In this document: piece after piece, positions 19,996 through 62,293 of the stretch | Position numbering within the stretch: the first letter of the stretch is position 1 | How the letters are laid out: each line of letters begins with the position of its first letter | From: a virus | Length of the DNA stretch: 64,000 nt | Reading direction: 5' to 3' (one strand) | Virus record (IMG/VR): IMGVR_UViG_3300005099_000065 | Location: 1 to 64,000 of that record | Notes under the pieces: model-generated | The model's database searches: none | Told to the model about the DNA's origin: nothing | What the model saw: only the letters and a program-made list of their open reading frames with translations | Made by a program: the position numbers and the translations under genes

Positions 19996-20355
19996 TTGTT
20001 AGGCACTCAAGCAAGAAAAAGAGGCTATCAAATAAACAGAGTTCAGTTGAAATTGAAAAGACATCGAACATTAACACCAGACATCGTGGCGTATGTTATG
20101 GGGACTCGCTGCGTGTTGGGGTGGGATTGTGAATCTTGTCCCAAATATTCTCATTGCAAAAAGCGAGTCCAAAGGGATCTCTTTTATCAAAAGAAAATTG
20201 AAGACGAAGTGTTAGACTATTTGGACAGAGCCAGAAAAAGCAGAGGTCCCGATTTATGTGATTTGGGAGTGGTAAGTGATATAGTACAGGAGGAATATTT
20301 ATATGAGTGGGAAGAGGATTTCGAAGGTATCAATTATCATTCCAGTTTACAATAA
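19996..20355 (+). CDS. Small cysteine-cluster protein
   Basis: 119 residues if it starts at TTG 19996 (8 bases after GGAGG; GTG 19987 is also in frame). The middle carries five cysteines, CVLGWDCESCPKYSHCKK preceded by one residue, likely a metal site. The N-terminus is basic, the C-terminus acidic. Its 3' end overlaps the next glycosyltransferase by 53 bases. No family recognised; it lies within the sugar island. Confidence 0.45.
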   Translation: MLGTQARKRGYQINRVQLKLKRHRTLTPDIVAYVMGTRCVLGWDCESCPKYSHCKKRVQRDLFYQKKIEDEVLDYLDRARKSRGPDLCDLGVVSDIVQEEYLYEWEEDFEGINYHSSLQ

Positions 20356-22354
20356 TTTGCAATTGTTGAAGAAGTGCATAAGCTCGCTTCGTCAACACCA
20401 TGCTGGAGCTGAATATGAATTGGTGATTGTGGACGATGGGAGTACAGAGCCTGGGACGAAAGAGTATTTGAGCAATTTTGAAAATGTGATACAGCAAAGC
20501 AATCAGGGATTTATAAAGGCATGCAACCACGGAGCCAAAGTAGCAATTGGCGAATATCTTTTGTTTATGAATTCAGATATCGAGGTTTTGCACGATGGTT
20601 GGCTGGGAAGGTTGGTGATGGTATTTGAAGAGAAAGAGGATGTGGGGATAGTAGGATGCAAATTGATTTTCCCTGACGACACTGTACAACATTGTGGTAT
20701 GGAATTTTCCTCACGCCATATGAATTTCATTCACCGTCATTATCGAGCCCACAAAGCAGATCCTCAAGTAAACCAAAGCGGATACGTACCAGCTGTTACA
20801 GGAGCTTTGTTTATGGTGAGAAGGAAAGTGTGGGATGAGTTGAATGGATTTGATGAACAGTATGTATTCGGATATTTTGAAGACACGGATTTTTGTATGA
20901 GAGCTTTGGAGAAAGGATGGAAAACTTATTATTGTGCTTCGGTGGAAATGATTCACCACCAGTCAGCTACCACGGGAGGATGTCCATCTGAAGTCTGGTT
21001 TCACAACCATGAAATTTTTAAACAGAGATGGATCCGAACTGGCAAACTATGTCGTTATCCTAAAATAGCAGCTTGCTACATTGTATTCAATGAAGCCGAA
21101 TTCATCAGCGAAAGCTTAGCCAGCATTTATCCTTGGGTTCACAAAATCATCATTGTAGAAGGCTGTACTGAATACACAAAGCAATTTGCTCGACCAGATG
21201 GAAGCAGTAGTGATGGGACAGTTGAAAAAATAAAAAACTTCAATGATCCTCAGAAAAAAATTGTACTCATTCAAGGAAAGTGGAAAGACAAAACACAAAT
21301 GAGAAACGAATATTGCAAACATTTGAAAGGATTTGATTATGCTTTGGTTGTGGATGGAGATGAGGTATGGAGTTATCGGGAAATGGCAAAAGTAGAGGAA
21401 TTGATGTTCAAAGAACCGCATGTCAGAGCATTCAGTTTTGGAATGTATGAGTTTTGGAAAGACTTTACCAGAGTGAACAAAGGAGTGTGGGAACAGTTTT
21501 TGGGTCGTCGTACTTTGATAAAATTGGACAAGGGGCTCAAGTACAAAGATCATTTGACTCCTGTCACAGAGGATGGTCAAGTGATTCCAGCCACTTTGCA
21601 TCCCGAAATTCATTTTCACCACTACAATTATTGCCAAAGTGATGAAAAAATTAAGCAAAAATTTGAATATTATCTCAAGAAAGGCACTCCTGGTTTCAAG
21701 CTGAATGGAAATTGGTATGAAGAAGTGTGGAAGGCTTGGGATAAAGACCGAGTGAAAGTGGAAAGCACCACAGGCAATCATCCATTTGGGGGTGGGTACA
21801 CAGTGGAATATCTGGGAGATCATCCCGAAGCTGTACGCAACCATCCCAAATACCAACATTTCCTTTTCATTCGCAAGCGTTCCATTTTGTTTACATGCGA
21901 TTTGAATTTCCAATTGCCGTTTTTTCATCGGCTCACCCCTTATGATGTGAATCCATTAGATCCTTTTGCTCACGATGTCAAGGTGTTCGTGTTGTATGAT
22001 TTTTTGTCTCATTATTCCAAAAATGAAATTCAATCCATTTTGAACAATTTGTGTGCTTTGTTGGACAACCAAGGAGAAATACGCATCATTGAACCCGATG
22101 CCGAAAAGATAACCCGTGCCTTCTGTTCTCGCCATATCTCTATTTCAGATCTCAACAATTTGCTTTTGGGTAATCCCAATCATCAATTTGGACAAAGGAA
22201 AACTTTGTTGAATGTGAGTTTGTTGAAGATTATGCTTTTGGCTGGTGGATTTAGTTTTATCCAAAGCCTTGACAGACCAGATTTTTTCTTGGAAATCAGG
22301 GCATTCAAATCCCCAATTTATAATATTTTTAGACATTTGAAAGGAGGGATTTGA
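20303..22354 (+). CDS. Three-domain bifunctional glycosyltransferase (GT2-GT2-methyltransferase-like)
   Basis: 683 residues; AGGAGG lies 9 bases before ATG. Domain 1 (about 8-245) is a GT2 with SIIIPVYNN, ELVIVDDGS, EYLLFMNSDIEV and the rhamnosyl/galactosyl-type GYFEDTDFCMRA. Domain 2 (about 250-480) is a second GT-A fold (YIVFNEAEFISESLASI, then ALVVDGDE). Domain 3 (about 545-680) follows the late half of a SAM methyltransferase (LYDFLSHY, GEIRIIEPD, LLAGGF) without a SAM loop. Such modular enzymes make repeating sugars. Last gene of the island. Confidence 0.75.
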   Translation: MSGKRISKVSIIIPVYNNLQLLKKCISSLRQHHAGAEYELVIVDDGSTEPGTKEYLSNFENVIQQSNQGFIKACNHGAKVAIGEYLLFMNSDIEVLHDGWLGRLVMVFEEKEDVGIVGCKLIFPDDTVQHCGMEFSSRHMNFIHRHYRAHKADPQVNQSGYVPAVTGALFMVRRKVWDELNGFDEQYVFGYFEDTDFCMRALEKGWKTYYCASVEMIHHQSATTGGCPSEVWFHNHEIFKQRWIRTGKLCRYPKIAACYIVFNEAEFISESLASIYPWVHKIIIVEGCTEYTKQFARPDGSSSDGTVEKIKNFNDPQKKIVLIQGKWKDKTQMRNEYCKHLKGFDYALVVDGDEVWSYREMAKVEELMFKEPHVRAFSFGMYEFWKDFTRVNKGVWEQFLGRRTLIKLDKGLKYKDHLTPVTEDGQVIPATLHPEIHFHHYNYCQSDEKIKQKFEYYLKKGTPGFKLNGNWYEEVWKAWDKDRVKVESTTGNHPFGGGYTVEYLGDHPEAVRNHPKYQHFLFIRKRSILFTCDLNFQLPFFHRLTPYDVNPLDPFAHDVKVFVLYDFLSHYSKNEIQSILNNLCALLDNQGEIRIIEPDAEKITRAFCSRHISISDLNNLLLGNPNHQFGQRKTLLNVSLLKIMLLAGGFSFIQSLDRPDFFLEIRAFKSPIYNIFRHLKGGI

Positions 22355-43221: not shown

Positions 43222-43398
43222 TTACGACCCAATTTCTCTCTCCAGTTGTTTGATTAGTTTTTCAATCTCTTCTTTTGTCCTCATGACAAGGAATACCAAA
43301 TACAAATTGTTTTGCTGATAACAGGTCTTTTTCAAAGTGTCTAAGCTTTTCAAAATCCCTCTCAGTTCGACCAAAATCATTTCATAAGATTTTTGCAT
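43222..43398 (-). CDS. Very small hypothetical protein
   Basis: 58 residues. ATG 43398 with GGAG upstream, overlapping the 3' end of the helicase gene by 17 bases; stop TAA at 43224-43222. Mostly helix, ending in a Lys/Glu coiled coil (RTKEEIEKLIKQLEREIG). It fills the otherwise empty gap 43189-43381. Short, but ribosome site and coupling support it. Confidence 0.5.
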   Translation of the reverse strand: MQKSYEMILVELRGILKSLDTLKKTCYQQNNLYLVFLVMRTKEEIEKLIKQLEREIGS

Positions 43399-44791
43399 CC
43401 TTTTTCTCCTTCAATTGCAAAATTTTCTTTTCAATTTCTTTTTCATTTCCCACTATCACATTCCAACCCAAAGCACGATAGATTTGAAATCTTTGTTGGC
43501 TGTGAGAAGCCAAATAATCATTCCCGTAATCCATACAGTCTATCAACAGTGGATTTGTGTCTTTGGGACGCAAAAGTCTACCAGCCCTTTGCACCACCGA
43601 AATTCGACTTCGACCTCCACCAGCTACCACCAGTACATCCAGCTGAGGAATGTCGATTCCTTCTTTCCACACGGTGGTGGCTATGACTATGGCGGATTGG
43701 TGGTTCAAAGCCTGGCGTAACAGGTGTTGAATTCGGCGAGGAGTTTTGCCTTGTACCAGCCTGGCTCCAGGAACAAGCGAAGCCAAAATTTTACCCTGCT
43801 CCACAGTGTCTACAGATATCAAAATCTTTCGACCTCTCAACAGTTCTACCAAATGAGCTAGCGTTTTATTTCTTTGTTCATTTTCAATTATTCCTTCCCT
43901 GCGTACCCAATACCAACTACCATAGACGGGACAGCGGGTTTTCACCATCAAAACAATGGGCTGAGACAAGTAAGATTGTTGTGTCAATTGTTGCACTTTT
44001 GCTTCATATATAATGGGACCTATGACACCGCAAGCTTTCATGTACTCTTCTGTCGTCCATAATGTGTGAGGAGTGGCTGTGAGACCGATGCGAAATGGGA
44101 TTTCGCTTTTGATTAAAATCCTCCGATAAGTATCAGAATGAGAGTGGTGGGCTTCATCCACCATTATCCCATCGAAATGTTCCCTCAAATTTTTGATTTC
44201 ATTTTCATCCCATCTGGACAAAGTTTGCACAGTGGCAATGGTGACTGTGGCTGGATAATAATCCACCTGTCCTCCACCCCAAATACGAGTGGAAAAGAAT
44301 CGGGAGAAAAACAAATATTGTTGGTGAAGCAATTCTCTGGTATGCACTATGAAAAGACATCTGAAATCCCGAATGCTGGCTATGATTCCAGCTGCTATGA
44401 TAGTTTTGCCTCCACCTGTGGGGATGTGGATGATTCCTCTTTGGTGTTCGAGAGAGTAATGAACTGCTTCATTTTGATATGAACGCAACTGAATACCATC
44501 CAAATTGATTTTTTGCAACTTGTAAGATAATTTCATCTTTCTGATTTTCAAATAAGGATATCTCTTTTCTATCTCTCCCAACAACCCACTCAAGAACCAA
44601 CCTCTTTCACTTATCATACTCACTTTGATTATCTTTTTCCTCCACACTCTCTTTTTCCCCCACCACGCTGGTTCCCATTGCACTTTTTTGTATATGAGTT
44701 CTTTTCTCAACCTTTCAAATTCTGGATGGTTGGGCGAAATCCAAGCCCAGCTAGGAGATCTTTGCACTATGTCAAAGGCTATTTTACGCAT
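43382..44791 (-). CDS. SF2 DNA helicase (UvsW-like)
   Basis: 469 residues. Helicase motifs in order: Q-like LRSYQNEAV (about 104-112), Walker A PTGGGKT (about 125-131), DEAH (about 212-215), TATPH (about 239-243), and in lobe 2 GIDIPQLDVLV and QRAGRLLR (about 390-410). A ~100-residue N-terminal domain precedes lobe 1, as in T4 UvsW, which acts in recombination-dependent replication and fork processing. Length fits. ATG overlaps the stop of the dehydratase gene by 8 bases. Confidence 0.8.
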   Translation of the reverse strand: MRKIAFDIVQRSPSWAWISPNHPEFERLRKELIYKKVQWEPAWWGKKRVWRKKIIKVSMISERGWFLSGLLGEIEKRYPYLKIRKMKLSYKLQKINLDGIQLRSYQNEAVHYSLEHQRGIIHIPTGGGKTIIAAGIIASIRDFRCLFIVHTRELLHQQYLFFSRFFSTRIWGGGQVDYYPATVTIATVQTLSRWDENEIKNLREHFDGIMVDEAHHSHSDTYRRILIKSEIPFRIGLTATPHTLWTTEEYMKACGVIGPIIYEAKVQQLTQQSYLSQPIVLMVKTRCPVYGSWYWVRREGIIENEQRNKTLAHLVELLRGRKILISVDTVEQGKILASLVPGARLVQGKTPRRIQHLLRQALNHQSAIVIATTVWKEGIDIPQLDVLVVAGGGRSRISVVQRAGRLLRPKDTNPLLIDCMDYGNDYLASHSQQRFQIYRALGWNVIVGNEKEIEKKILQLKEKKDAKIL

Positions 44792-45812
44792 TGTTTGCCA
44801 TTTGATTTTTGAGCTTGTTCAAATACCATTTCACCGTCACTCTCAATCCCTCTACCAAACTCAATTTCGGTCCCCAGCCAGTTGTTGTTCTGATTTTGAG
44901 ACAACACAATCTGTATTCCCAATCATGACCTGGACGATCTGACACGAATCTTATCAATCTTTCTCTTTCAGCATTTCCCTCAAACTCATCCACCAAATGA
45001 CAAATCAACTTCACCAATTCCAAATTTTGCACACTGAGAGTAAAGGCAGCATTTCCTATGTTATACGTGCCCAAAATACTTTTGCCTTTTTTCCTATACA
45101 ATTTCAACAATCGATGAAGGGCAGCGCAATAGTCGCCGATGTACAACCATGAACGCCTTTGTTCTCCTTTGCCATACACTGGTATGGGGCGTTGCAAATA
45201 AGCATTGAGAATGGTTTTGGGAATCAACTTGGAAAAATCTTGTCGAGGACCGTAAACGTTGGTTGAGTTGAAAATCAACACAGGCAAATCATATGTTCGC
45301 TGATATGCATTTATTAAACACATGGCACCTGCTTTACTAGCACTGTAAGGAGACGAAGGTCGATAAGGGGAATCCTCTTCAGCCCACACCTTGTCTCCAA
45401 ACACCTCGTCAGTACCTGCATAAAAGAACAACTTGCCTTCTCGAGATTTCCAAAATTCACGACAGGCTTCAAGCAAAGTGAGAGTGCCTTCCATATTGAT
45501 TCTGACGCAACGAAACGGATCTTTCAAACTCCTGTCCACGTGAGATTCAGCAGCAAAATGAAACACCATTTCAATAGGATAGAGAGTAAAGATGGTCTTC
45601 ACTTGCTCCCAATCCTCCACTCTTCCCTGAATATGATAATAACGAGTGGGAAATTCTTGGGTCAGTTCTTCATTGTTTCCATAACAAATATCCAACTCCA
45701 TGCTGTCCAAATTCACCACGTTCACATTGCGATATTGCATCAAAAGATTCCAAATCCAATTGCTACCAATAAACCCTGCCCCACCCGTTACCAGAACATA
45801 TTTTTCATTCAT
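44784..45812 (-). CDS. rfbB: dTDP-glucose 4,6-dehydratase-like enzyme
   Basis: 342 residues from ATG 45812 (7 bases after GGAGG; ATG 45818 sits too close). TGGAGFIGS (9-17) binds NAD; YAGTDEVFG (131-139) holds the Thr-Asp-Glu triad of RmlB dehydratases and Y156-x3-K160 (YSASK) the SDR pair. It makes NDP-4-keto-6-deoxyglucose, which would feed the sugar island at 14-22 kb although it sits far from it. Confidence 0.8.
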   Translation of the reverse strand: MNEKYVLVTGGAGFIGSNWIWNLLMQYRNVNVVNLDSMELDICYGNNEELTQEFPTRYYHIQGRVEDWEQVKTIFTLYPIEMVFHFAAESHVDRSLKDPFRCVRINMEGTLTLLEACREFWKSREGKLFFYAGTDEVFGDKVWAEEDSPYRPSSPYSASKAGAMCLINAYQRTYDLPVLIFNSTNVYGPRQDFSKLIPKTILNAYLQRPIPVYGKGEQRRSWLYIGDYCAALHRLLKLYRKKGKSILGTYNIGNAAFTLSVQNLELVKLICHLVDEFEGNAERERLIRFVSDRPGHDWEYRLCCLKIRTTTGWGPKLSLVEGLRVTVKWYLNKLKNQMANNA

Positions 45813-45832
45813 TTGCATTCCTCCTTGTTTTT

Positions 45833-51481: not shown

Positions 51482-52129
51482 ATGTTAATACCCAAAACAA
51501 AACAAGAGAAAAAACAGTTCATTTTGGCGATGCAAAAACTCAATGAGTTTTTGACAGCCAAAGGGGAAGGGGAGATTCCTAAAGCAGACATAGAGACTAA
51601 CGTGTATGATTTTGTGGATGCTATTGAGACAATGGATGAAAAATGGTTGGATGAGCTTCCCGATGAAGTGATAAATATGTACAACCATTTGGTGTCTGAC
51701 GAGTTGGCTGAAAGTGAACAGGAGAAAGTTGAAGAGAAAGAGGTTGAACAGCCAGAGCAAATTGAAGAAGCAAAGGAGGAGGAAGCGCAAGAGGCTGAAG
51801 CTGAAACTGAAACTGAGGCTGAAGCTGAAACTGAAACTGAGGCTGAAGCCGAGGAGACGAAGTTCGAAGGAAAGCCAGAACCACTTCCTAAAGATGCAAT
51901 AATTAAGAAGAAACCAACTCCACCTAAGAAACGTTCAAAATTCGAAACAATGGTGAGGGCTTTGCAAGCCAAATCACCTTGCACTATGGATGAATGGTTG
52001 GAAGAGGCTGAACGTATGTGGGGTAGGACAACCACGGATATGAAGTGGTACTTAAATGGTGTGGCTATTGTTTTGAAGTGTGTGGGTGTGTTAGAGGAAA
52101 AGGACGGTAAGCTTGTTTTGAAAAGATGA
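51482..52129 (+). CDS. Acidic-linker protein with C-terminal helix-turn-helix-like domain
   Basis: 215 residues behind AGGAGG. Residues ~75-125 are almost only Glu/Ala/Thr (a DNA repeat of AAGCTGAAACTGAAACTGAG is visible at 51800-51850). The C-terminal ~70 residues form a helical domain (FETMVRALQAKSPCTMDEWL, then MKWYLNGVAIVLKCV) like a winged helix. Could be a bridging protein of the replication complex. Unknown function. Confidence 0.5.
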   Translation: MLIPKTKQEKKQFILAMQKLNEFLTAKGEGEIPKADIETNVYDFVDAIETMDEKWLDELPDEVINMYNHLVSDELAESEQEKVEEKEVEQPEQIEEAKEEEAQEAEAETETEAEAETETEAEAEETKFEGKPEPLPKDAIIKKKPTPPKKRSKFETMVRALQAKSPCTMDEWLEEAERMWGRTTTDMKWYLNGVAIVLKCVGVLEEKDGKLVLKR

Positions 52130-53175
52130 AGGAGTTTAAAAATCCCATAAGCGTTAGAGGAGACTATTTGTATTGTCCTTTGCCTTTGGATTTGGACACA
52201 TATTGGAATTGTACCACCGATTGCGTGCATTGTTATCTCAGAAGGCTGAATTACGTGTGGGGCAAGGAGCAAAGAGCGTTAGACCCCATTAAGCTGGAAG
52301 CAAAATTGAAGACAGCTAGCCAATCCAAAGCCAGAAATGATTTGGCTGTAATGTTGAGACTAAAGAAAACTATCAGATGGGGAAACAAATCAGATCCTTT
52401 TCAAATTTGTGAATACAGATATGGCATTTCTGTTCAAGTGTTTCGGATTTTGAAGAGGTTGGACTGGAGTTTTGCTCTTTATACCAAGAATGTGGAATTG
52501 ATGCAAAAGATGTTAGGAGACGAGCTTTGGGATGAATGGTGTTTGAAAAATGTGAGTATGTTAATCAGTGTGATGGTGGGTCAGGAATATGATTGGGTGA
52601 AATTGGAAAATGAGAGATGTTCGTCTTTTGCAAACAGATTGCATTTTTTAGCCAGATGGTTGGATAAAGGAGGGATGGGGGCTTTGATTTGCGAGCCCTT
52701 CATTCCTGGATATCATTCCATATCACAATGGGAATCATTGTTGAAGCGAGCTAAGACATTAGGCATCAACAGAGTGAACATTTATAATTTTCATTTCAAT
52801 GCATTTGTGGCCAGGCGTTTGCACAAGCGAGGAATCGATATCAGAAGGATTTGGTATTACAACCAGGATCAACAATGGAGACCCATTTTGAAAGTGCTGT
52901 TGCGAAAGGCTAAGGATATGGGTATGATTGTGGGCTGTCCTGACTTCGTGAACAGTGGTGATTTTGTAGATGAATGTAATACGTGTTGCGGAGTGGATGT
53001 GCCTAATCCTTGTCGTTTTAACACCCATCATTGGAAACCAATGTGGTTGTTGGGTTATGAAGCAGATGATATAATCGAGCGGACATATGAGGGTTATGGG
53101 GATGTGAAAAAGGCTAGGCGGATTTTGCAAGGACGAAGTAAAGAATTTTACACTATGAAGGATATTGTGAAATGA
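52126..53175 (+). CDS. Radical SAM enzyme A
   Basis: 349 residues; ATG overlaps the previous stop (ATGA). C29-x3-C33-x2-C36 (CTTDCVHC) is the 4Fe-4S signature; the preceding CPLPLDLDTY and later KTIRWGNKSDPFQICEY fit the spore-photoproduct-lyase/Rv2578c-like group. Several more cysteines (CNTCCG near 285) may hold a second cluster. It shares the stretch before the signature with the gene at 54722. Reaction unknown; nucleotide or DNA modification is possible. Confidence 0.7.
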   Translation: MKEFKNPISVRGDYLYCPLPLDLDTYWNCTTDCVHCYLRRLNYVWGKEQRALDPIKLEAKLKTASQSKARNDLAVMLRLKKTIRWGNKSDPFQICEYRYGISVQVFRILKRLDWSFALYTKNVELMQKMLGDELWDEWCLKNVSMLISVMVGQEYDWVKLENERCSSFANRLHFLARWLDKGGMGALICEPFIPGYHSISQWESLLKRAKTLGINRVNIYNFHFNAFVARRLHKRGIDIRRIWYYNQDQQWRPILKVLLRKAKDMGMIVGCPDFVNSGDFVDECNTCCGVDVPNPCRFNTHHWKPMWLLGYEADDIIERTYEGYGDVKKARRILQGRSKEFYTMKDIVK

Positions 53176-53939
53176 AACTGTATTATTATTTTCATTTTGG
53201 GGATTGTGTTTTGAAAGTGCCTCATAATGTCTCTCGGTTTTCTCAAACCAGGGTGCGGAAAAACACACCTCATTCTCAATTCATCTTTGATCATCGAGAG
53301 GATTTGATTTGTGAATTGAATTGTGTGAAGGATTTGGCTCAAAGCTTTTCTTTCACATCTTATTTGGAGATGATGGCTGGTTTGGGTTTCAGTGCCAAAC
53401 TGGTAAGCAGTATTCAAGATTTGAATGAAATTTGGTTGAATGACAAGGATGAGTTTTGTACTACCAGCTTGGCTATCAATTTTGCAAATGAAGTGGGAAA
53501 GGAAATCATGATTACCCAGAGTGATGTTTTGGATTTGAAAGTGGTTGGTCGTTGGGATGTGATTTTTATCGATTTCAACACTTTTTCTATGAAGAGATGG
53601 AATGAGTGGTTGAGATTGTGGGGTAATGTGAAAGGAAAGTTTCGTAATTTATGGTTAACGGACACTGCTTGTTATGTGTGGACAAAATTTGGAGCTCAAA
53701 CATTTGAGAAATGTTTTGGTTTCAAATCTTTGGAACAATATTGCCAGTCTTTTTCAAATTTGATAAAATCTACTTTAGGAGCATCGCTAAGAAGAGCAAG
53801 AATAGGAGCAAATGGCAAATGTGCCATTTTGGATTTCGAATATGGTTATGAGGGTGATTGGGATTTGAGAAAAGTGGACAAAAGTTTGAGTTTGAAAATA
53901 GAAGTGAAGTGGGGTTTGAGGAATGATTGTGAGAAATGA
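53172..53939 (+). CDS. Class I methyltransferase-like protein
   Basis: 255 residues; ATGA overlap with the previous gene. YLEMMAGLGFSAKLV (about 64-78) is a motif I-like loop, WLNDKD marks strand 2, and WDVIFIDFNTF (about 128-138) stands at motif IV. The order is as in tRNA or RNA methyltransferases, but the catalytic residues cannot be assigned. Cys-rich for a phage protein. In an operon with two radical SAM genes. Confidence 0.5.
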   Translation: MKLYYYFHFGDCVLKVPHNVSRFSQTRVRKNTPHSQFIFDHREDLICELNCVKDLAQSFSFTSYLEMMAGLGFSAKLVSSIQDLNEIWLNDKDEFCTTSLAINFANEVGKEIMITQSDVLDLKVVGRWDVIFIDFNTFSMKRWNEWLRLWGNVKGKFRNLWLTDTACYVWTKFGAQTFEKCFGFKSLEQYCQSFSNLIKSTLGASLRRARIGANGKCAILDFEYGYEGDWDLRKVDKSLSLKIEVKWGLRNDCEK

Positions 53940-54720
53940 TACGCCGATTGAAAAAGTGACTTCGTCTATTTTTGTGAAACGTGAAGACTTGGCTACATTG
54001 TCTCCAGGTCCTCCTTTCAGTAAGACACGGGGTTTGTTTCAGCATTTGTTTTTGCTTTTTCGTTTAGGAATCAGATGTGTGGGTTATGTGGAAACAGCTA
54101 TTTCAATGGCAGGATGGGCTGTGGCTTGGTTAGGAAAAAAGATGAATATGAAAGTCATCATTTTCGATCCTCAGTACAAAGATGATTCTAAATTTCCTTT
54201 GCCTTTGCATCGCCAAAAGTGGAAACAGTTTGGGGCACAGCTGGTGAAGGTGAGAGCAGGTAAAGCCAGTGTGAATTGGTACATTGCCAGACGCTGGATG
54301 AAGGAGAATGTTCATCAGCCATGGAAATTGTTGCCTTTGGGATTACCTTTGAATGAGACTGTGTTGGAAACCTTTGCGCAAGCGAGAAAGTGTATCAGAG
54401 ATTTCCCTACCATAGTGGTTCCAGTTGGTAGTGGTACTATTGCTTGCGGGATAGCCAGAGCTTTGTATCGGAACCAAAAACTGATTGGCATTATGAGTCG
54501 CACTGGAGATGTGCGCAGAAAATTTAAGTTTGTGGTTAAGTGGTGTGAATATCCAACTCATGTGGACATAGTGGACCCAGGATATCCTTACACCAAAAAG
54601 GTGGACATCAAAACTCCATTTCCTTGCAATCCTTATTATGATACCAAAGCTTGGCAGTGGGTGTTGGAACATGAAGATGAGTTGGAGAAGCCTATTTTGT
54701 TTTGGAACATAGGGGCATGA
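53923..54720 (+). CDS. PLP-dependent fold-type II enzyme
   Basis: 265 residues, overlapping the previous gene by 17 bases. FVKREDLATLSPGPPFSKTRG (K34 likely Schiff-base lysine) and PVGSGTIACGIARAL (167-181, phosphate loop) are the hallmarks of the tryptophan-synthase-beta / ACC-deaminase / D-cysteine-desulfhydrase group. It acts on an amino acid side chain, e.g. elimination or replacement at the beta carbon. Slightly shorter than free enzymes (about 320). Unusual in a phage; likely makes an amino-acid-derived group. Confidence 0.7.
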   Translation: MIVRNDTPIEKVTSSIFVKREDLATLSPGPPFSKTRGLFQHLFLLFRLGIRCVGYVETAISMAGWAVAWLGKKMNMKVIIFDPQYKDDSKFPLPLHRQKWKQFGAQLVKVRAGKASVNWYIARRWMKENVHQPWKLLPLGLPLNETVLETFAQARKCIRDFPTIVVPVGSGTIACGIARALYRNQKLIGIMSRTGDVRRKFKFVVKWCEYPTHVDIVDPGYPYTKKVDIKTPFPCNPYYDTKAWQWVLEHEDELEKPILFWNIGA

Positions 54721-54721
54721 A

Positions 54722-56119
54722 ATGGAATATGAAGATTTGAAGCGCAAGTTGCAAAGGATTGTGCCTCGCCATGGGGTTTTTGCTTTGCCTAAAATGCCAA
54801 GGTTGAGTCACAAGGGGAGGAAAAAGAATTATCGTCAATATCATTTGGTAGAGAACAAATTGATAGAGCCTAGACGAAATTTGCATGAGGAGGAAATCAA
54901 ATCATTTGCTGAAGTGAGTCTCAGAGCACAAGCATGCCCTATGCCTTTGAATTTGGACACATATGATGGTTTGATTTGTCCTTTTGGATGTCGTTATTGC
55001 TATGCAAATTGGTTTCGCTTGAGTTTGTACACTTCGTTTTTCGACAATCCTGACCAAATAGGGATTCGAAGTTGCAACCCCGATTTCTTCAAGCGTCAGT
55101 TAGATAGATATATGAGTTACAGGGGTAAGGTTGAGAAGGCTGGTAATGAAGTGGCTCGGGCTTTCGCTTTGGAGATTCCTGTGAGGTTTGGAATCAGATT
55201 TGAAGACTTTTTGCCTTGTGAAGAAAAGAGGAAGGTGTCTTATGAGCTTTTGAGGTACCTGAAAGAGGTGAGTTATCCCGTGATGATAAACACCAAATCA
55301 ACTTTGGTGGGAAGGGATGAGTATGTGAAGGTGTTGTCTGAAAATAAAGCTAAGGCAGCTGTTCATATGACTTTGATTACAGCTGATGAAAGGTTGCGTA
55401 AGAAATTGGAACCAGGTGCTCCATCGTTTAAACGCAGAATAGAGGCTTGTGCTTCTTTGGCTTCGGCTGGTGTTCGAGTGGTGGCCAGAATAGAACCATT
55501 TATGCCTTTTTTGAATGATACGATGTTGGACGAGTATGCTCAGGCTTTGAAGGAAGCGGGAGTGTCTAACATCACATTCGACACGTACAGTTATAGTGCT
55601 AGAGGATTTGTGGTGAGAGGGGCTTTTCAGATGGTGGGTTTGGATTTTGACAGGATGTTTTATGCTGTGTCCGATTCTCAACCATTGGGTTCATTGGCTT
55701 TGGCTTTGTTTATGAATGAATTCAGAAAGAGAGGTTTCAGTTGTTCCACGTTTGATTTTGGAAATGTCCCATACAACGATCAAGACATTTGTTGTGAAGT
55801 GGGAGATTGGTTCGAAGGTGGATGGAATTATGGATGTGGAGTGATGGCTATTCGTTATATCAAATCCCAGTCACCCAAACCCGTCAGATGGTCTCAATTT
55901 GAAAACTGGGTGGAAGGCAAAGGAGGCTTTTTGTCTCCTGCTTTGAAAAAAGAAGTACATCAAATTTGGAATGGGGAGGGGGATGGCCAATTTTATCTGA
56001 GCTGGGCTGACGGTTTGAAGTGTTGTGGTTGGGATGAGGATGGTAGGGTTTGGCGCTGGGATCCAGATGAAAATTATCGTCAAAAGATGTTTCAAGTATT
56101 GTTGGAGGGATTGAAATGA
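54722..56119 (+). CDS. Radical SAM enzyme B
   Basis: 465 residues, 1 base after the previous stop. C86-x3-C90-x2-C93 (CPFGCRYC) follows CPMPLNLDTY, the same lead-in as enzyme A. KLEPGAPSFKRRIEA and ASAGVRVVARIEPFMPF (about 225-262) are typical of the spore-photoproduct-lyase-like radical SAM family. The C-terminal 130 residues carry more cysteines (DICCEV, GYGCGV, KCCGW), perhaps another Fe-S cluster. Paralogue of enzyme A, in the same operon. Confidence 0.75.
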   Translation: MEYEDLKRKLQRIVPRHGVFALPKMPRLSHKGRKKNYRQYHLVENKLIEPRRNLHEEEIKSFAEVSLRAQACPMPLNLDTYDGLICPFGCRYCYANWFRLSLYTSFFDNPDQIGIRSCNPDFFKRQLDRYMSYRGKVEKAGNEVARAFALEIPVRFGIRFEDFLPCEEKRKVSYELLRYLKEVSYPVMINTKSTLVGRDEYVKVLSENKAKAAVHMTLITADERLRKKLEPGAPSFKRRIEACASLASAGVRVVARIEPFMPFLNDTMLDEYAQALKEAGVSNITFDTYSYSARGFVVRGAFQMVGLDFDRMFYAVSDSQPLGSLALALFMNEFRKRGFSCSTFDFGNVPYNDQDICCEVGDWFEGGWNYGCGVMAIRYIKSQSPKPVRWSQFENWVEGKGGFLSPALKKEVHQIWNGEGDGQFYLSWADGLKCCGWDEDGRVWRWDPDENYRQKMFQVLLEGLK

Positions 56120-56952
56120 TTTCATCTTCTCAATTGGAAAAAATATTTGCTCACGCAGCAGCTTTGCATTCAGAGGGAAAAATGAAAAATTGGATTTACG
56201 GGGAAGGCACTAAGATTTACATTTTGAACACAGATTGTTCTTTGTTGGTGAGGTTTAAAGTGCCTTGGGAGCTGGGTCATTTTTGCTTTTCAGCTCACGA
56301 ATATGAAGGTCAAGAATTTCATCTTTCTCCAACTGGCATGATATTCAAGTCACAAGATCAAGATTACGAGAGAACAAAATTTAGCCCCGTCAATCCACCG
56401 TATTCTTTTGAATGGATAAAGCGCACGTGGAGTGTTTTGGATCAAAAGACAAAGGAGTGCAAACCAGTTGGAAAAATAGTTTTGGAAGACAAGGTTTTGA
56501 GATGGTTGGAAAAGGATCTTCCCCATACAGAATTTGTGTTGAAGGAGAAGGGATGGTCTTTGGTTCAACGCAACATATATACGGGAGAAATCATTCAGAT
56601 TACCAAAAAACCTCGCCCTTTGACTTTGTTGGATAAGGATGAGGTGATGGGTGAAAGGAGTATAGGTTTGAGGACAAATGACTTTTTTGCTCTTTTCACA
56701 TTTGTGTCCAAGCTCAGCTTTTATTTTTATGATTTACCTTTTGCACAAGCTATGAATTTGAGCTTTTTTGATATGAGAGTGTTTTTGGGAGGATGTTTTT
56801 ATGATTCATTAGGAGATTTGGAGGTGATTTATGGGAGGGAAATCCAGAAAGTCAGGCATGGTGAGCCGTCAGCTGATAGAAAAAATATTGAGAGAAGGAA
56901 AGAGCTCATCCAAAAAATCAAGGCAAGGCGGCGGCTCATCAACAAAGGTTAA
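56116..56952 (+). CDS. Hypothetical protein in the replication operon
   Basis: 278 residues; ATGA overlap. Beta-rich with an alternation (GEGTKIYILNTDCSLLVRFKV ... GWSLVQRNIYTGEIIQITKK) that recalls sliding-clamp domains, and it is near the DnaN-like clamp gene. Ends in a basic Arg/Lys helix (RKELIQKIKARRRL). Resemblance to a clamp is by strand pattern only; it could also be an unrelated nuclease- or clamp-associated protein. Confidence 0.3.
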   Translation: MISSSQLEKIFAHAAALHSEGKMKNWIYGEGTKIYILNTDCSLLVRFKVPWELGHFCFSAHEYEGQEFHLSPTGMIFKSQDQDYERTKFSPVNPPYSFEWIKRTWSVLDQKTKECKPVGKIVLEDKVLRWLEKDLPHTEFVLKEKGWSLVQRNIYTGEIIQITKKPRPLTLLDKDEVMGERSIGLRTNDFFALFTFVSKLSFYFYDLPFAQAMNLSFFDMRVFLGGCFYDSLGDLEVIYGREIQKVRHGEPSADRKNIERRKELIQKIKARRRLINKG

Positions 56953-56973
56953 GTTGCCTTTGGGAGTCAAGAG

Positions 56974-57759
56974 ATGAGTTATTTGGAATGCTTGGAACGG
57001 TGGAGAATTGAGCCCAATTTTTGGATGAGCGATGAGTATTTTGAGAAGGCTGGATTTAGAGAAGAAAGGAAAGGGAATGTTTGGTATGTGAGAGATGATG
57101 AAGGAAAATTGATGTTTCCTCCTGTGCATGAAAGTGTGGGTTTGATTGCTGGTTGCGAGGATATTTGGGCTGATGTGGATGGTTTTCAAGGAGAAGGTCA
57201 AAAGGAATTTTTGGACTGGGAGTACATTTATGACCCTAGAGACTTTTTGCGTTTGGAAGGGGGCAAGTGGAGGACATTTCGTAAAAACGTGCGCAGATAT
57301 GCTCGCATTCATTCGGCTAATTTGTTATATGAAAATTGGAATTCGGCTTCATCCAAATTGACTGATTTGTCTGAACAGGTGGAAGACATTGTGGTGCAAT
57401 GGCTTCAAAAAGACGAATCACGTTACATATGGGATGCTGAGGTTATGTTGGTTTATGTTCGGGAAGGTCAAAATCGTGAAGTTTTGTGGGATGTGAAGAG
57501 TAAAAAGGTTTTGGGGATAAACATTTGGGATGAAAACTATTGGTATGTGAATTTTCGTTATTGTTTTTGTCGTGATGAGAAGTATTTGAGTGAGTATTTG
57601 AGATGGTGTTTTTATTTGGCTCGATGTTTTAGTGGTAATCCAAAGCTGGTGAATGACGGAGGGACATTGGGTTCTCAAGGTTTGGAGCGTTTTAAGGACA
57701 AATTGAATCCAATCAAGAAAAGGAGGGTATATTCATGGAGGGTAAGCGAGTCAAAATAA
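56974..57759 (+). CDS. FemABX/DUF2156-like acyltransferase
   Basis: 261 residues. WEYIYDPRDFLRLEGGKWRTF then NVRRYAR (about 82-111) and, near the end, VNDGGTLGSQGLERFKDKL are the two characteristic blocks of Fem-like/DUF2156 GNAT-fold proteins, which move an aminoacyl group from aminoacyl-tRNA or similar donors. A role in attaching an amino acid to a nucleobase, peptide or lipid is possible. Overlaps the clamp gene by 25 bases. Confidence 0.55.
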   Translation: MSYLECLERWRIEPNFWMSDEYFEKAGFREERKGNVWYVRDDEGKLMFPPVHESVGLIAGCEDIWADVDGFQGEGQKEFLDWEYIYDPRDFLRLEGGKWRTFRKNVRRYARIHSANLLYENWNSASSKLTDLSEQVEDIVVQWLQKDESRYIWDAEVMLVYVREGQNREVLWDVKSKKVLGINIWDENYWYVNFRYCFCRDEKYLSEYLRWCFYLARCFSGNPKLVNDGGTLGSQGLERFKDKLNPIKKRRVYSWRVSESK

Positions 57760-58838
57760 CGAGACGTCCTAAACCTTACCCAGCTTTGAAGGCTGGTCAG
57801 ATGGCTTCGCTTTTGAAGCCAGTGATGGCTAGTTTGAGAGAGGGAGAAGGAGAAGGAGTGTTGTTTCAGAACAATTGGATGGTGGGTGTGGGAGAGTATT
57901 TGATGGTTTGGTCGCCATTGCCCACTGGAGTGGCTGGTTGTGTGAATGGTAAATTGTTATTCGAGTTTGTGCATCGTTTGCCTCCCGAAGAGGCTTTGCA
58001 ATGTCGTGTTGAGGATGTGCATTTGATTTTGGAGAGCAAGGATAAGCCCAGAAAGTTGAAAATGAATTTGATTAGTGAAGTTTGGGAACCATGGGCAACA
58101 CCACCAAAGTTGGAAGAGTTTTTACCCCTGGAAGAAAGCTTCTTCAAGGATTTGGAATTGGCGCTGGGTGGATTGGAAGTGAAATCCTTGATAGGTCCTT
58201 TGGCTGGTGTATGGATTGGAGAAAATAAAGTTTTGGCCACTGACGAATGTAGGGCAAATATGTTGCAACGTCAGGGAGGGATTTATGCAATAAAACCTGG
58301 TCTGCTTTTTTCGGCTAGAGCTTTGGATTGTTTGTTAGATTTGAAATTGGCTTGTAACGGATGGTTATTGGATAAGGACAGAAGGTGGGTTTGGTTTTCT
58401 ACATTGGAAGGGATTTTGTGCGCTGTGAGGTTGATGCAAAGCGAAGAATATCCCACACAGGCTTTGGTCGAGTTGTTTTCTCGCTCTCGCCATTATGTTT
58501 CTTTCCCTGTGTCGGAGTTTGGCGAAGCTGTGGATTTGGCTCATGTGGTTGCTAAACATTCAGGAACCAAGAATCTCATTGTTTCTCTGATTTGGAAGGG
58601 AAACACTTTGACAATTGTGGGGAGAGGCGAATTCGGTTCATTTGAACAATCGATGAATTGGAAAAAGGATTCTAGCTTACCTGATGAAGGTGGTTTTGAT
58701 GTGAATCCTGTGTTGTTGAAAAACATGATAGAAGGTTCAGTAGAAGCAAAATTTGGTTTGACTGAAACTTTGGTGTTTGTTGAGGGCGAGGATTTTCAAT
58801 ATTTAGCACCTTTGATTTGGAAAAGCAATGAAGCTTAA
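57735..58838 (+). CDS. dnaN: Sliding clamp, DnaN-like
   Basis: 367 residues, ATG 57735 behind AAAAGGAGGG. Length equals bacterial beta clamps (about 366). Three repeated alpha-beta domains: LKAGQMASLLKPVMASL (domain 1), GPLAGVWIGENKVLATDECRAN (start of domain 2), and a final domain FDVNPVLLKNMIEGSV then YLAPLIWK, matching the C-terminal clamp pattern. The clamp tethers the polymerase at 58828; the loader is at 61331. Confidence 0.7.
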   Translation: MEGKRVKITRRPKPYPALKAGQMASLLKPVMASLREGEGEGVLFQNNWMVGVGEYLMVWSPLPTGVAGCVNGKLLFEFVHRLPPEEALQCRVEDVHLILESKDKPRKLKMNLISEVWEPWATPPKLEEFLPLEESFFKDLELALGGLEVKSLIGPLAGVWIGENKVLATDECRANMLQRQGGIYAIKPGLLFSARALDCLLDLKLACNGWLLDKDRRWVWFSTLEGILCAVRLMQSEEYPTQALVELFSRSRHYVSFPVSEFGEAVDLAHVVAKHSGTKNLIVSLIWKGNTLTIVGRGEFGSFEQSMNWKKDSSLPDEGGFDVNPVLLKNMIEGSVEAKFGLTETLVFVEGEDFQYLAPLIWKSNEA

Positions 58839-61350
58839 ATTGTTCGAGGGCGAACCAGATTGCATGAAGTGTGGATTGTATCGAGGGATTAAGTCTCCAC
58901 GTATGTCTTACACTGGTAAGGGTGAGAAAGGAGTGTTGATAGTGGCGGAAGCGCCAGGTAAGACAGAAGATGAGCAAGGGGTGCAGTTGGTGGGGCGAGC
59001 TGGTCAATATTTTCGTTCTGTTTTGAAAAGTTATGGTTGGGATTTGGACAGGGATTGCTGGAAAATCAATGCTGTGAACTGTTATTGTTCTCACAAACCA
59101 ACCAGAACGCAAATTTCGTGTTGTCGACCAATGGTTGAAAGAGCTATTAAGGAATGTCGTCCACGTTACATTTGGTTGTTGGGGGAATGTGCCATAGCTA
59201 GCTTTTTTTCATGTTATTTCGGTGATTGTTCTCCCACTTTGTGGAGAAAGTTTTGCATTCCTGACAGACGTTACAAATGTTGGGTAATTCCTTTGTTTCA
59301 TCCCAGCTTTGTGATTCGGAATGAGAAGGATAAAGGGTTGAGTATGACGTTTGAGAGAGATGTGGGTTGGGCTATTCGTCAAAGTGAAAAGGAGCGAACA
59401 TGGATTGATTTCTCTCCCGAATCTCAAATAAACATATTGTTGAGTGAGGCTGATGTGATATTGAAGTTGAAGGATTTGAAACAAAGTGATTTGATAGCCT
59501 TCGATTACGAAACCACAGGACTGAAACCATTTGCACAAGGTCATCGGATTATTAGTGTGGCAGTGAGTAATGGAAAAGAAACTTTTGTTTTTCCTTTTCA
59601 GCATCGGGCTTCTCCATGGCTGAATGACGAATCGATAAAGCATGAATGGACGAACATTTTGCTCGAGTCCAAAATCAAAAAAATAGCTCACAATGTTTCA
59701 TTCGAGGATTTATGGAGTCGTGTGATATTGAATTTAGATGAGGTGAAGGGATGGTTTTGGGACACGAAGTTGGTGGCTCATCTTTTGGACAATCGCAAGG
59801 ATTTGACTCATTTGAAGTTTTTGGCTTTCGTTAATTGGGGTTTGGTTTGGACAGAGAAAGTGAAACCTTATTTGGGTGGCGCTTCATCTAACGAATTCAA
59901 TAAGTTGGAAAAAGTGAATTTGAAGGATTTGTGTCTTTACAATGGGATTGATGCTTTGATGACTTGGAAAATTTTTGAAAAGCAATTTGACGAGCTGAAG
60001 CATCGTCCCAAGTTGAAATCGGCTTTTGATTTGTTTTTCAAGGGTCAGTTGGTCTTGTCCAAGTGTACTAGCAGAGGGTTGAAGGTGGATTTGCAATATT
60101 ATGAGAAGCAATGCAAGAGAGCTCAACGCAACATAGACAGATTGGTTCACGAGCTTCTTCACGACGAGAGCGCTAAGAGGTTTGAGCAAAAGTACAAGAA
60201 ACAAATAGATTTGAGATCAGCTTTGGATTTGAGAAGGTTGTTTTTTTACGTGAAAAAATATCAACCTTTCAAAGTCACATCCAAGACCAATCCCAGCGTT
60301 GATCAAGAGTCACTGGAATATTTTCAAGAGGAATACCAAGACACTTTTGCCGAAAAGCTTTTGGTTTTGAGAAAATGGGAGAAAATCAATTCCACATATT
60401 TGTCGGGGATTATGAAAGAAGCAGTGAATGGCAAAGTACATCCCTTCTTTTCATTGGCCACATCTCGTTCATATCGTTCATCTTCTCATTCTCCCAATTT
60501 TCAAAACATTCCTGTGAGAGATGAGTTAGCTAAAAAAATTGTCAGAAGGGGAATCATAGCCCACAAAGGTTGGCAATTGATGGAGGTGGATTACAGCGGA
60601 ATTGAGGTGAGAATTGGAGCTTGTTACCACAAAGACAAAAATATGATCGAATACATTTGTAATCCAGATTCAGATATGCATAGAGATTGCGCAGCAGACA
60701 TTTGGTTGTTGGACAAAAATGATGTGACAAAGGAGCTTAGGTTTTATGCAAAAAACCAATGGGTGTTTCCTCAGTTTTATGGTGATTGGTATGGGAGATG
60801 CGCTGAGAAATTGTGGAGAGTTTGTCGACATTTGAAATTGAAAAATGGAATGAAAGTGGAGGATTGGATAAAGACCAAAGGCATAACTTGTTTTGATGAT
60901 TTTGTTCAGCATTGCAAACAAATGGAAGACAAGTTTTGGAACCAGCGCTTTCGGGGATATCAACAATGGAAGGAGGAGATGTGGGAATTTTATTTGAGAA
61001 AAGGTTATGTGGAGACATTTTTCGGTTTTCGTTTCACGGGCTATATGGATTTTAAGAGAGTGAACAATTATCCAATTCAAGCCACTGCTTTTCATTGTTT
61101 GTTGTGGAGTTTGATTCAGATAGAGAGTGAGTTGAAATCCAATGGAATGAGAACCAAAATTTTAGGTGAAATTCATGACAGCATTATATTTGAGGTTTGG
61201 CCACCAGAGAGAGAACAAGTGATACAATTGGTGAGGGAGGTGATGACCCAAAGGATTAGGAAACAACACGATTGGATTATTGTGCCTTTGGACATAGATA
61301 TAGAAATTGCACCAGTTGGAGGAAGTTGGGATGAAAAACAATCAATTTAA
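58828..61350 (+). CDS. Family A DNA polymerase with N-terminal uracil-DNA-glycosylase-like domain
   Basis: 840 residues. Domain 1 (1-190): C12-x2-C15, AEAPG (40-44), VGRAG (55-59), C85 and C99, HPS (158-160), the complete pattern of 4Fe-4S family-4 UDGs. Domain 2 (about 220-400): 3'-5' exonuclease with D226-x-E228 (FDYET), HNVSFEDLW and Y-x3-D375. Domain 3: polymerase motif A EVDYSGIEVR (D588), motif B KNQWVFPQFYG, motif C EIHDS (D784). Whether the UDG domain cuts uracil or only recognises it cannot be told. The main phage replicase. Confidence 0.85.
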   Translation: MKLKLFEGEPDCMKCGLYRGIKSPRMSYTGKGEKGVLIVAEAPGKTEDEQGVQLVGRAGQYFRSVLKSYGWDLDRDCWKINAVNCYCSHKPTRTQISCCRPMVERAIKECRPRYIWLLGECAIASFFSCYFGDCSPTLWRKFCIPDRRYKCWVIPLFHPSFVIRNEKDKGLSMTFERDVGWAIRQSEKERTWIDFSPESQINILLSEADVILKLKDLKQSDLIAFDYETTGLKPFAQGHRIISVAVSNGKETFVFPFQHRASPWLNDESIKHEWTNILLESKIKKIAHNVSFEDLWSRVILNLDEVKGWFWDTKLVAHLLDNRKDLTHLKFLAFVNWGLVWTEKVKPYLGGASSNEFNKLEKVNLKDLCLYNGIDALMTWKIFEKQFDELKHRPKLKSAFDLFFKGQLVLSKCTSRGLKVDLQYYEKQCKRAQRNIDRLVHELLHDESAKRFEQKYKKQIDLRSALDLRRLFFYVKKYQPFKVTSKTNPSVDQESLEYFQEEYQDTFAEKLLVLRKWEKINSTYLSGIMKEAVNGKVHPFFSLATSRSYRSSSHSPNFQNIPVRDELAKKIVRRGIIAHKGWQLMEVDYSGIEVRIGACYHKDKNMIEYICNPDSDMHRDCAADIWLLDKNDVTKELRFYAKNQWVFPQFYGDWYGRCAEKLWRVCRHLKLKNGMKVEDWIKTKGITCFDDFVQHCKQMEDKFWNQRFRGYQQWKEEMWEFYLRKGYVETFFGFRFTGYMDFKRVNNYPIQATAFHCLLWSLIQIESELKSNGMRTKILGEIHDSIIFEVWPPEREQVIQLVREVMTQRIRKQHDWIIVPLDIDIEIAPVGGSWDEKQSI

Positions 61351-62293
61351 CGAGGAAGTTTTGTATTTGAAGTACAGACCCAAGGATTTCGATGAGTTTG
61401 TGGGAAATGAATCCACTGTAGAGTCTTTGAGGTCTGTGTTGGAAAGAGGAAATCCTCCTCATGCTTTTTTGTTTTACGGTCCCACAGGTTGCGGGAAAAC
61501 CACTCTGGCTAGGATTGTGAAAAAATATTTGGATTGTGGTGATCGAGATTTTCATGAGTACAACGTGGCAAATGTAAGAGGTATTGACACTATTAGGGAG
61601 ATTTTGAACCAAATGTGGTATGCGCCTGTCGGTGGTCGTTCTAAGATATATTTGTTAGATGAATGCCATGCTTTGACCCGTGATGCTCAAAATGCTTTAT
61701 TGAAGGCATTGGAAGACACTCCAAGCCATGTGTATTTTATTTTGTGCACGACAGAACCACAAAGACTTCTTCAGACCATTCGCAATCGTTGTACTCCATT
61801 TGAGGTTTCAAGGTTAGCTCGTCCTAAGATGTTGAGGCTTTTGAAAAGAGTGTCAGAAGCTGAGGGTTTGAATTTGGATAGCCGATTTTTGGGTCAAATA
61901 GCCACAATGAGTGAGGGATCTCCTCGAGCTGCTTTGGTGTTGTTGGATGGAGTGAAAGATTTACAAGATGAAAATGATATCGAGAAGTTTTTGCAATCTC
62001 AAGTTCCAGATGAGATGAAGTTTCAAGACCTCGTTCGTGTGTTGTTGGATTATCGTTTGTCTTCCCCAGCTAGATGGAAGGAAGTGAGTCGTTTTCTCTC
62101 TACCACTCGTGAGGATCCTGAGAAACTGAGAAGAGCTTTGATGCATTATCTGGCTAAGGTGTTGTTGAACCAACCCAATGTTCAATTGGCTAGATTGTTG
62201 GAATGTTTGATGAATGGGGATGTGAGGGATGCTGGATGGCCAGGATTGGTGTATTGTTTGTTTGTGGGAAATTTTTTTGCTCCACAAAAATAG
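61331..62293 (+). CDS. Clamp loader subunit (RFC/DnaX-like AAA+ ATPase)
   Basis: 320 residues from ATG 61331 behind GGAGG; overlaps the polymerase by 20 bases. Starts with LKYRPKDFDEFVGN, Walker A GPTGCGKT (50-57), Walker B LLDECH (108-113), NRCTPFE as sensor-like SRC region, sensor 2 EGSPRAAL. Loads the clamp at 57735. A single loader gene as in T4 gp44-like systems; no second (gp62-like) gene is identified. Confidence 0.8.
   Translation: MKNNQFNEEVLYLKYRPKDFDEFVGNESTVESLRSVLERGNPPHAFLFYGPTGCGKTTLARIVKKYLDCGDRDFHEYNVANVRGIDTIREILNQMWYAPVGGRSKIYLLDECHALTRDAQNALLKALEDTPSHVYFILCTTEPQRLLQTIRNRCTPFEVSRLARPKMLRLLKRVSEAEGLNLDSRFLGQIATMSEGSPRAALVLLDGVKDLQDENDIEKFLQSQVPDEMKFQDLVRVLLDYRLSSPARWKEVSRFLSTTREDPEKLRRALMHYLAKVLLNQPNVQLARLLECLMNGDVRDAGWPGLVYCLFVGNFFAPQK

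Follow-up and report, generated by a model that had tools for sequence, protein, structure and literature searches.

A conserved gene cassette of uncultured bacterial viruses, probably for DNA-base hypermodification, with tailoring enzymes related to those of phage M6

The known elaborate thymidine modifications begin from 5-hydroxymethyl-dU and a DNA kinase. In the M6/YuA cluster the product is 5-(2-aminoethyl)-dU, and the PLP enzyme of M6, a relative of the one described here, is reported to decarboxylate a C-linked amino acid. The M6 cassette contains an amino acid:DNA transferase (ADDT), a PLP enzyme, a radical-SAM (rSAM) enzyme, a 5hmdU DNA kinase (HMUDK), Nmad5 and TS, and the SN1/M6 genes have been described in terms of thymidine modification (PMC9476957).

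Here we compare with these systems a locus in the virus record IMGVR_UViG_3300005099_000065, of which positions 1-64,000 (one strand, 5' to 3') form the window, i.e. the whole stretch of 64,000 nt that was analysed. The block of five enzyme genes noticed in an initial annotation is indeed present at 52126-57759, where we count six genes, all on the + strand (ORF coordinates were checked). Between neighbouring cassette genes there are overlaps of at most 17 nt or gaps of 1-21 nt. The features, with their context, are as follows.

51482..52129, +, accessory ORF: acidic low-complexity linker and conserved C-terminal region; same-slot family
52126..53175, +, rSAM A: CTTDCVHC; lead-in Cys in CPLPLDLDTY; conserved C-terminal cysteines in GCPDFVN...NTCCG
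53172..53939, +, MT: divergent class I SAM-dependent methyltransferase; optional gene
53923..54720, +, PLP: KRED, FSKTRG, GSGTIACG; fold-type II, M6 gp052 family; optional gene
54722..56119, +, rSAM B: CPFGCRYC; lead-in CPMPLN; C-terminal CC...GC
56116..56952, +, ORF5: predicted two-domain, PCNA-like sliding-clamp fold
56974..57759, +, ORF6: predicted MprF/L-PGS/FemX-fold acyltransferase
57735..58838, +, context: replicative beta-type sliding clamp (phrog_947 processivity factor 0.0024, full length; its relative in contig L012 matches DNA_pol3_beta, 9e-5)
58828..61350, +, context: family-4 UDG domain fused to a PolA-type DNA polymerase (TIGR00758 5e-21; PolA 1e-65)
61307..62293, +, context: clamp loader subunit, start codon uncertain (phrog_5846 1.2e-64)

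The annotation had proposed looking for the same gene set in other phages. We recovered 63 related virus contigs, 47 of them with a complete cassette in the order helicase, rSAM A or A', variable enzymes, rSAM B, ORF5, ORF6, clamp, UDG/polymerase, clamp loader. Since homologues at 35-55% identity occur in identical order in dozens of contigs, a chance arrangement is excluded. The block is a genuine one and belongs to a conserved module, which has helicase/primase on one side and clamp/polymerase/loader on the other in nearly all contigs that were mapped. Several of the related records are fragments, so that absence in any single record is only probable. The carriers form a group of uncultured bacterial viruses without any known relative in culture, and rSAM A, MT, ORF5 and ORF6 had no match among 50,697 phage records. 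As queries, the PLP protein alone retrieved no close relatives from viral contigs and a two-row ORF6 alignment retrieved two loci only. Judged by its sequence family, found in the same slot in 54 contigs (hhalign E 2.7e-18), the ORF at 51482-52129, upstream of rSAM A, belongs to the module as well. An outlier of this family, L059, has a 50-residue N-terminal match to M6 gp049 (5e-6). The C-terminal region of the present ORF looks, by eye, like a small winged-helix domain; homology of this ORF to M6 gp049 (DUF3489) is not supported (hmmsearch 0.0038, hhalign 0.34).

The annotation had also missed that the middle genes vary in a modular fashion. The variable slot holds differing mixtures of PLP enzyme, methyltransferase, aldo/keto reductase (AKR), DUF362, CmoA and others, and seven complete cassettes carry, of the modelled families, only A, B, ORF5 and ORF6. 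In association tests that ignore shared ancestry, PLP and AKR are largely exclusive (p=0.005), MT goes with AKR (p=0.009) and A' occurs with DUF362 (5/5). The same region of relatives also contains DNA-modification genes, namely TAGT glycosyltransferase, Mom and Amidoligase_2.

The PLP enzyme provides the clearest tie to a characterised pathway. It matches a protein of Pseudomonas phage M6 over 100% of its length (tblastn 35.5% identity, 4e-43), which places it in the tailoring family of M6 gp052, as well as phrog_7093 (1.2e-43) and Pfam PALP (3.8e-10), in agreement with its first assignment to fold-type II. In the family alignment the Schiff-base Lys in FSKxRG and the SGT phosphate loop are invariant, and the C-terminus reads FWNIG. 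From these sequence comparisons it is clearly homologous to the thymidine-hypermodification PLP enzyme of M6. The "methyltransferase-like" label of MT (family in 20 contigs) also held, its profile matching class I SAM methyltransferases in a PDB profile search (3ntv, 1.2e-5). A reading of MT as a divergent ADDT was abandoned in view of these matches and because MT occurs in other combinations with rSAM and PLP. CmoA (TIGR00740, 3.2e-40 at L025) was found among the relatives only in L025/L027 and L055; it stands beside MT in two contigs only and is absent from the present virus (G000), which counts against the explanation that we favour below. MT has no C5-MTase match in Pfam, and the pairing of CmoA with a C5-MTase-type CmoX, as in a carboxymethylation system, was not found.

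Both rSAM A (family in 55 contigs) and rSAM B (60 contigs) belong to the radical SAM superfamily, B by Pfam (Radical_SAM 3.3e-11, over the cut-off) and A by NCBIfam (PA0069-like, 9.9e-8) together with its hhalign match to the M6 rSAM (E 4e-9 over 252 columns). B matches NCBIfam PA0069 at 4.6e-21 and the M6 rSAM at 9e-7 (hhalign). The PA0069/Rv2578c matches reach 29-75 bits, against family cut-offs of 360-430. All uninterrupted members carry the CxxxCxxC [4Fe-4S] motif, CxxxCxYC in B, whose lead-in CPMPLN is invariant. A and B are remote relatives of the M6 enzyme. From the common lead-in it had been concluded that A and B arose by duplication. That they are related is borne out (hhalign 6e-19, with the lead-in Cys in both), whereas duplication within this lineage is plausible and no firmer, because the M6 rSAM also carries the lead-in Cys and the fork uniting A, A' and B as one clade apart from the outgroups is weak (68/77).

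Searching the PDB with the sequences of rSAM A, rSAM B and ORF5 yielded no useful match. Predicted structures of the last two genes' products brought out two folds that had gone unnoticed. The "one unknown gene", ORF5, is a constant part of the module, and its AlphaFold2 model (pLDDT 80.2) matches PCNA (Foldseek 1.2e-8, prob 1.00, 257 columns) and viral clamps. We thus predict a sliding-clamp fold distinct from the adjoining beta-type clamp; a separate clamp accompanies ORF5 in 45 of 53 contigs, and a kinase assignment was dropped on the clamp fold. The TM-scores to clamps are moderate, about 0.5, and the invariant His/Glu/Gln/Arg/Cys include polar residues unusual for a plain clamp; both points count against our favoured explanation. 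The ORF6 model (pLDDT 93.5) agrees with the proposed Fem/DUF2156-like acyltransferase, matching 5vrv (DUF2156, 4e-8), MprF, A-PGS, Sbb17 and FemX in Foldseek, with a tandem GNAT fold (2hqy, 5vrv, MprF and FemX, all at prob 1.00); Pfam LPG_synthase_C lies just under its cut-off (8.5e-6; 25.5 vs 27.5 bits). The model suggests that ORF6 is probably an aminoacyl-tRNA-dependent aminoacyl transferase, a fold that does not in itself prove tRNA use, acetyl-CoA or others being possible donors instead.

The 5hmdU DNA kinase, already noted as missing, was indeed not detected in any of the 37 related records, the present virus included (HMUDK_hel, PF18723), nor was ADDT (PF18724, 0/37), both profiles detecting three of three M6-type controls. 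A thymidylate-synthase-family dUMP hydroxymethylase is lacking in the present virus, the 21 records searched giving one weak, broken match; one M6_TS-like ORF occurs in L073. The Tet_JBP profile matched 0 of 32 records and none of the controls either. These results bear on the view that the cassette encodes an ordinary M6/ViI-type 5hmdU pathway, whose kinase and transferase, from host or phage, are too divergent to detect (MT or ORF5, for instance). The homology of PLP and rSAM to M6 would fit, as would the location of MT directly upstream of PLP, which is the place of ADDT in M6. We nevertheless think it improbable, given the positive controls, the near absence of thymidylate synthase, the matches of MT to methyltransferases and of ORF5 to clamps, and the seven complete cassettes in which A, B, ORF5 and ORF6 are the only modelled families. 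One argument of the annotation in favour of a modifying pathway, the UDG-domain polymerase downstream, was dropped: PaBG-type phages too have a UDG-PolA fusion (PMC7412058), and most relatives encode the polymerase apart from the UDG/exonuclease part, making the fusion weak evidence of base modification.

We think that the cassette probably carries out post-replicative DNA-base hypermodification, with thymine C5 as the likeliest target. This reading relies on the homology of PLP to M6, the rSAM relation and shared lead-in Cys, the position among replication genes with modular tailoring genes, the predicted folds of ORF5 and ORF6, and the presence of CmoA, TAGT, Mom and Amidoligase_2 in the same region of relatives. 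The pathway is best read as related to that of M6 in its tailoring chemistry, with another entry, since HMUDK and ADDT are absent while controls are positive; it is possibly clamp-tethered and aminoacyl-tRNA-using, and probably new, as the annotation had suggested. In such a pathway, ORF5 would hold the enzymes on the DNA in the wake of the fork; rSAM B and rSAM A (or A'), which share a superfamily with the M6 rSAM and spore photoproduct lyase, would use radical chemistry to functionalise the base, and this step would take the place of the hydroxymethyl-kinase entry and leave a substituent that bears an amino acid or amine; in the present virus PLP would decarboxylate or otherwise trim the C-linked amino acid, as its M6 relative reportedly does, and MT would add a methyl or carboxymethyl group; and ORF6 would finally transfer an amino acid from aminoacyl-tRNA to an exposed amine or hydroxyl. 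In relatives a reductase branch (AKR with MT or an FAD oxidoreductase) may replace the PLP step, and swapped branches could yield different final bases blocking host nucleases. Which base is attacked, in what order the steps follow and what serves as donor are guesses. The boldest version, in which the two rSAMs act directly on an ordinary DNA base without hydroxymethylation or phosphorylation, with a dedicated second clamp, final aminoacylation from aminoacyl-tRNA and interchangeable tailoring giving lineage-specific bases, is tentative and rather doubtful as a whole.

That DNA is the substrate is itself inferred. RNA (tRNA wobble bases or mRNA) could be modified instead, the clamp and polymerase genes being mere neighbours: CmoA, adjoining MT in two relatives, and many rSAM enzymes work on tRNA, and enzymes of the ORF6 type use aminoacyl-tRNA. 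We consider this unlikely in view of the strict embedding in a replication block, the clamp-fold member, the TAGT and Mom genes of relatives, and the nearest characterised relatives of PLP and rSAM, which serve DNA modification (PMC9476957). Synthesis of a small molecule or cofactor, or modification of a protein such as the clamp or polymerase, is likewise unlikely: natural-product pathways typically employ rSAM, PLP, MT, AKR and aminoacyl-tRNA-dependent transferases, and Sbb17 is a fold neighbour of ORF6, but we recognised no transporter, carrier protein or precursor peptide among the cassette genes, the linkage to replication genes is constant, and the homology is to M6 DNA-modification enzymes.

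If DNA-base hypermodification is correct, a widespread cassette with an M6-type tailoring enzyme, but without the known entry, would reveal another route into it, and possibly a new means of hiding viral DNA from the defences of the host. Radical chemistry directly on DNA, the use of aminoacyl-tRNA as a donor in DNA modification, and a clamp reserved for such modification would all be unexpected. The swapped tailoring genes would make the relatives a natural library, useful in finding new DNA bases and in work on viral evasion of nucleases.

Among known systems, the COG1533/SplB superfamily (PA0069, Rv2578c, spore photoproduct lyase) shares the CxxxCxxC domain with A and B, PA0069/Rv2578c being their best NCBIfam matches and the spore photoproduct lyase match weak; scores far under the cut-offs, and the lead-in and C-terminal cysteines, mark off A, A' and B. 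Sliding clamps (PCNA, beta, gp45) resemble the predicted ORF5 fold over almost its full length, but ORF5 is encoded besides the replicative clamp and has its own invariant residues. The MprF/L-PGS C-terminal domain, FemX and Sbb17 match the whole ORF6 model, which differs in being soluble, without a membrane part, at ~10-15% identity, and in having probably a nucleobase as acceptor rather than lipid or peptide. With the CmoA-CmoX-CmoY carboxymethylcytosine system of Synechococcus phage S-B43 (PMC12783734), two relatives share CmoA, beside a methyltransferase, and the common idea is a handle extended by amino acids; in contrast, Pfam does not assign MT to the C5-cytosine methyltransferases, CmoA is missing from the present virus, CmoY was not seen, and the cassette is rSAM-centred. 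As for the Pseudomonas phage M6/YuA cluster, the claimed relation to thymidine hypermodification is supported by a clearly homologous PLP enzyme (35%, full length) and a distantly homologous rSAM of the same superfamily with a lead-in Cys, near the DNA polymerase in both cases; HMUDK, ADDT, Nmad5 and a TS-type hydroxymethylase were not found in the present cassette, which has instead two rSAMs rather than one, MT, a clamp-fold protein and an MprF/FemX-fold transferase.

The IMG/VR record of this virus is 79,661 bp long, and the six cassette genes and their neighbours all lie on its + strand, in a tight run:

51482-52129 (+): small acidic protein, first gene of the run
52126-53175 (+): radical-SAM enzyme, rSAM A
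53172-53939 (+): methyltransferase-like protein, MT
53923-54720 (+): fold-type II PLP enzyme
54722-56119 (+): second radical-SAM enzyme, rSAM B
56116-56952 (+): ORF5, clamp-fold protein
56974-57759 (+): ORF6, MprF/FemX-fold acyltransferase
57735-58838 (+): clamp
58828-61350 (+): UDG-PolA, followed by the clamp loader gene

From 51482 to the clamp loader, genes overlap by 44 nt or less or are separated by 1-21 nt, the last overlap (UDG-PolA/loader) hinging on the uncertain start codon of the loader. An N6/N4 methylase, a primase and a DnaB-type helicase lie 5' of the run. The motifs read in the cassette proteins by the initial annotation are correct, and the gene block that it described is borne out and extended, the same gene order recurring in relatives. 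Beside the replication block, on the opposite strand, are a ResIII-type helicase (window 43382-44791, -) and a GDP-mannose-dehydratase/epimerase-like gene (44784-45818, -); two GT2 glycosyltransferases far upstream (16220-17356 and 20303-22354) possibly serve surface or virion glycosylation. Outside the window, at about 70105-71202 of the record (L003:8106-9203), a gene encodes a protein containing several CxxCH haem-binding motifs (Paired_CXXCH_1). This may point to a host that respires anaerobically, a setting in which radical-SAM chemistry would be at home.

Searched against IMG/VR, a two-row alignment of rSAM B picked up 31 loci (46-57% identity) and rSAM A picked up 60; the two scans together cover 63 distinct contigs. 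The recurring order is helicase, small acidic protein, rSAM A, variable genes, rSAM B, ORF5, ORF6, clamp, UDG/polymerase and loader. rSAM A occurs without rSAM B only at contig ends, and ORF5 and ORF6 come after rSAM B wherever the contig goes on, with L081 as sole exception. Among 50,697 phage records there were zero matches to rSAM A, MT, ORF5 or ORF6, and genome contigs gave a single one, a 3.5-kb Bacillota MAG contig.

The middle genes vary: the 47 complete cassettes carry PLP only (14), MT with an aldo/keto reductase (AKR; 8), neither (7), A', an alternative to rSAM A, with DUF362 (4), MT (3), PLP with MT (3, including the studied virus) or other mixes. PLP and AKR avoid each other (together in 1, apart in 21 and 10; p=0.005), MT is positively associated with AKR (p=0.009) and DUF362 is present wherever A' is, all in tests that ignore shared ancestry. 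Pfam/NCBIfam bear out DUF362, aldo/keto reductase and CmoA in the cassette region of relatives and, in single relatives, an FAD-dependent oxidoreductase, a TAGT glycosyltransferase, Amidoligase_2 and Mom. The loci L030:13274-14185, L053:7173-7997 and L014:11409-12227 comprise a Mom family gene that adjoins the clamp and TAGT-type glycosyltransferases that lie near or inside cassettes; the L013 and L020 records contain TAGT as well. Near a cassette with only rSAM A and B sits another radical-SAM gene, QueE-like by eye (L018:5839-6573; Radical_SAM 1.2e-10, Fer4_12). A family of small proteins (97-143 aa; L016:1441-1857 and nine relatives) recurs beside rSAM B or ORF6, and a Pfam search with the L016 member gave no match.

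rSAM A aligns with the radical-SAM enzyme of Pseudomonas phage M6, a phage with thymidine hypermodification, across 252 columns (E 4e-9); rSAM B does so more weakly (9e-7). A and B match each other at 6e-19, and their origin by duplication, as initially claimed, is not proven. A Cys 11-15 residues ahead of CxxxCxxC is common to A, A', B and the M6 enzyme and is missing in two fecal-phage relatives. Seven rSAM B genes (L031, L061, L067, L078, L084, L088, L092) have intein-like insertions at this motif (e.g. ...LVHN|CPFACIYC); in L067, L078 and L084 the halves are separate ORFs flanking an endonuclease-like ORF of ~280-290 aa, which resembles fractured genes with split inteins. The PLP enzyme is a full-length homologue of M6 gp052 (35.5%, 4e-43), with matches in 67 phage records, and in alignment with the M6 family it retains the FSKxRG lysine, SGT loop and FWNIG end.

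ORF5, previously left without assignment, has a predicted sliding-clamp fold (pLDDT 80): the model aligns with PCNA and other clamps almost from end to end (best E 1.2e-8, prob 1.00, TM about 0.5), which suggests tethering on DNA. Of the 53 ORF5-bearing contigs, 45 encode a beta-type replicative clamp in a gene of its own. In the PDB, the ORF6 model (pLDDT 93.5) first matches 2hqy, a DUF2156-like protein of unknown function, then MprF/L-PGS/A-PGS, then Sbb17 and Sba18, peptide synthases that depend on aminoacyl-tRNA, and FemX; these matches suggest aminoacyl-tRNA as donor.

We propose that rSAM A/A' and B would make the first base changes, probably at thymine C5, since spore photoproduct lyase and the radical-SAM enzyme of M6, two members of this superfamily, act on thymine derivatives. 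The product would be a base with an amine- or amino-acid-bearing group, which an optional PLP step may trim, a reductase branch being able to stand in for PLP; MT would add a methyl or carboxymethyl group, and ORF6 an amino acid. We regard the cassette as a novel form of phage DNA hypermodification that may, with appreciable probability, turn out to be categorically new. The strict replication context, the clamp fold of ORF5 and the homology to M6 enzymes make RNA or a small molecule a less likely substrate than DNA. The new DNA-modifying pathway first suggested is supported in outline, but not the argument that took the downstream UDG-domain polymerase as evidence for modification.

As to the M6 route, Lee and co-workers (2022) reportedly found that glycine is put on phosphorylated 5hmdU, that a C-linked amino acid arises from it through isomerisation by the radical-SAM enzyme, and that the PLP enzyme then decarboxylates this. 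The M6 cluster contains an amino-acid:DNA transferase (ADDT), PLP, radical-SAM, a 5hmdU-DNA kinase (HMUDK), Nmad5 and a TS-like enzyme; these genes are listed as a thymidine modification cassette in the near-identical phage SN1 (PMC9476957), and 5-(2-aminoethyl)-dU is present in M6 DNA (PMC6449724). HMUDK and ADDT were each found in 0 of 37 related records, including the studied virus, with M6-type controls positive (3/3 for each), and a TS-family enzyme is absent from the studied virus and from nearly all of the relatives searched, which places the cassette pathway outside the definition of the 5hmdU-kinase route. The two do not share the defining entry enzymes, but have their tailoring chemistry in common.
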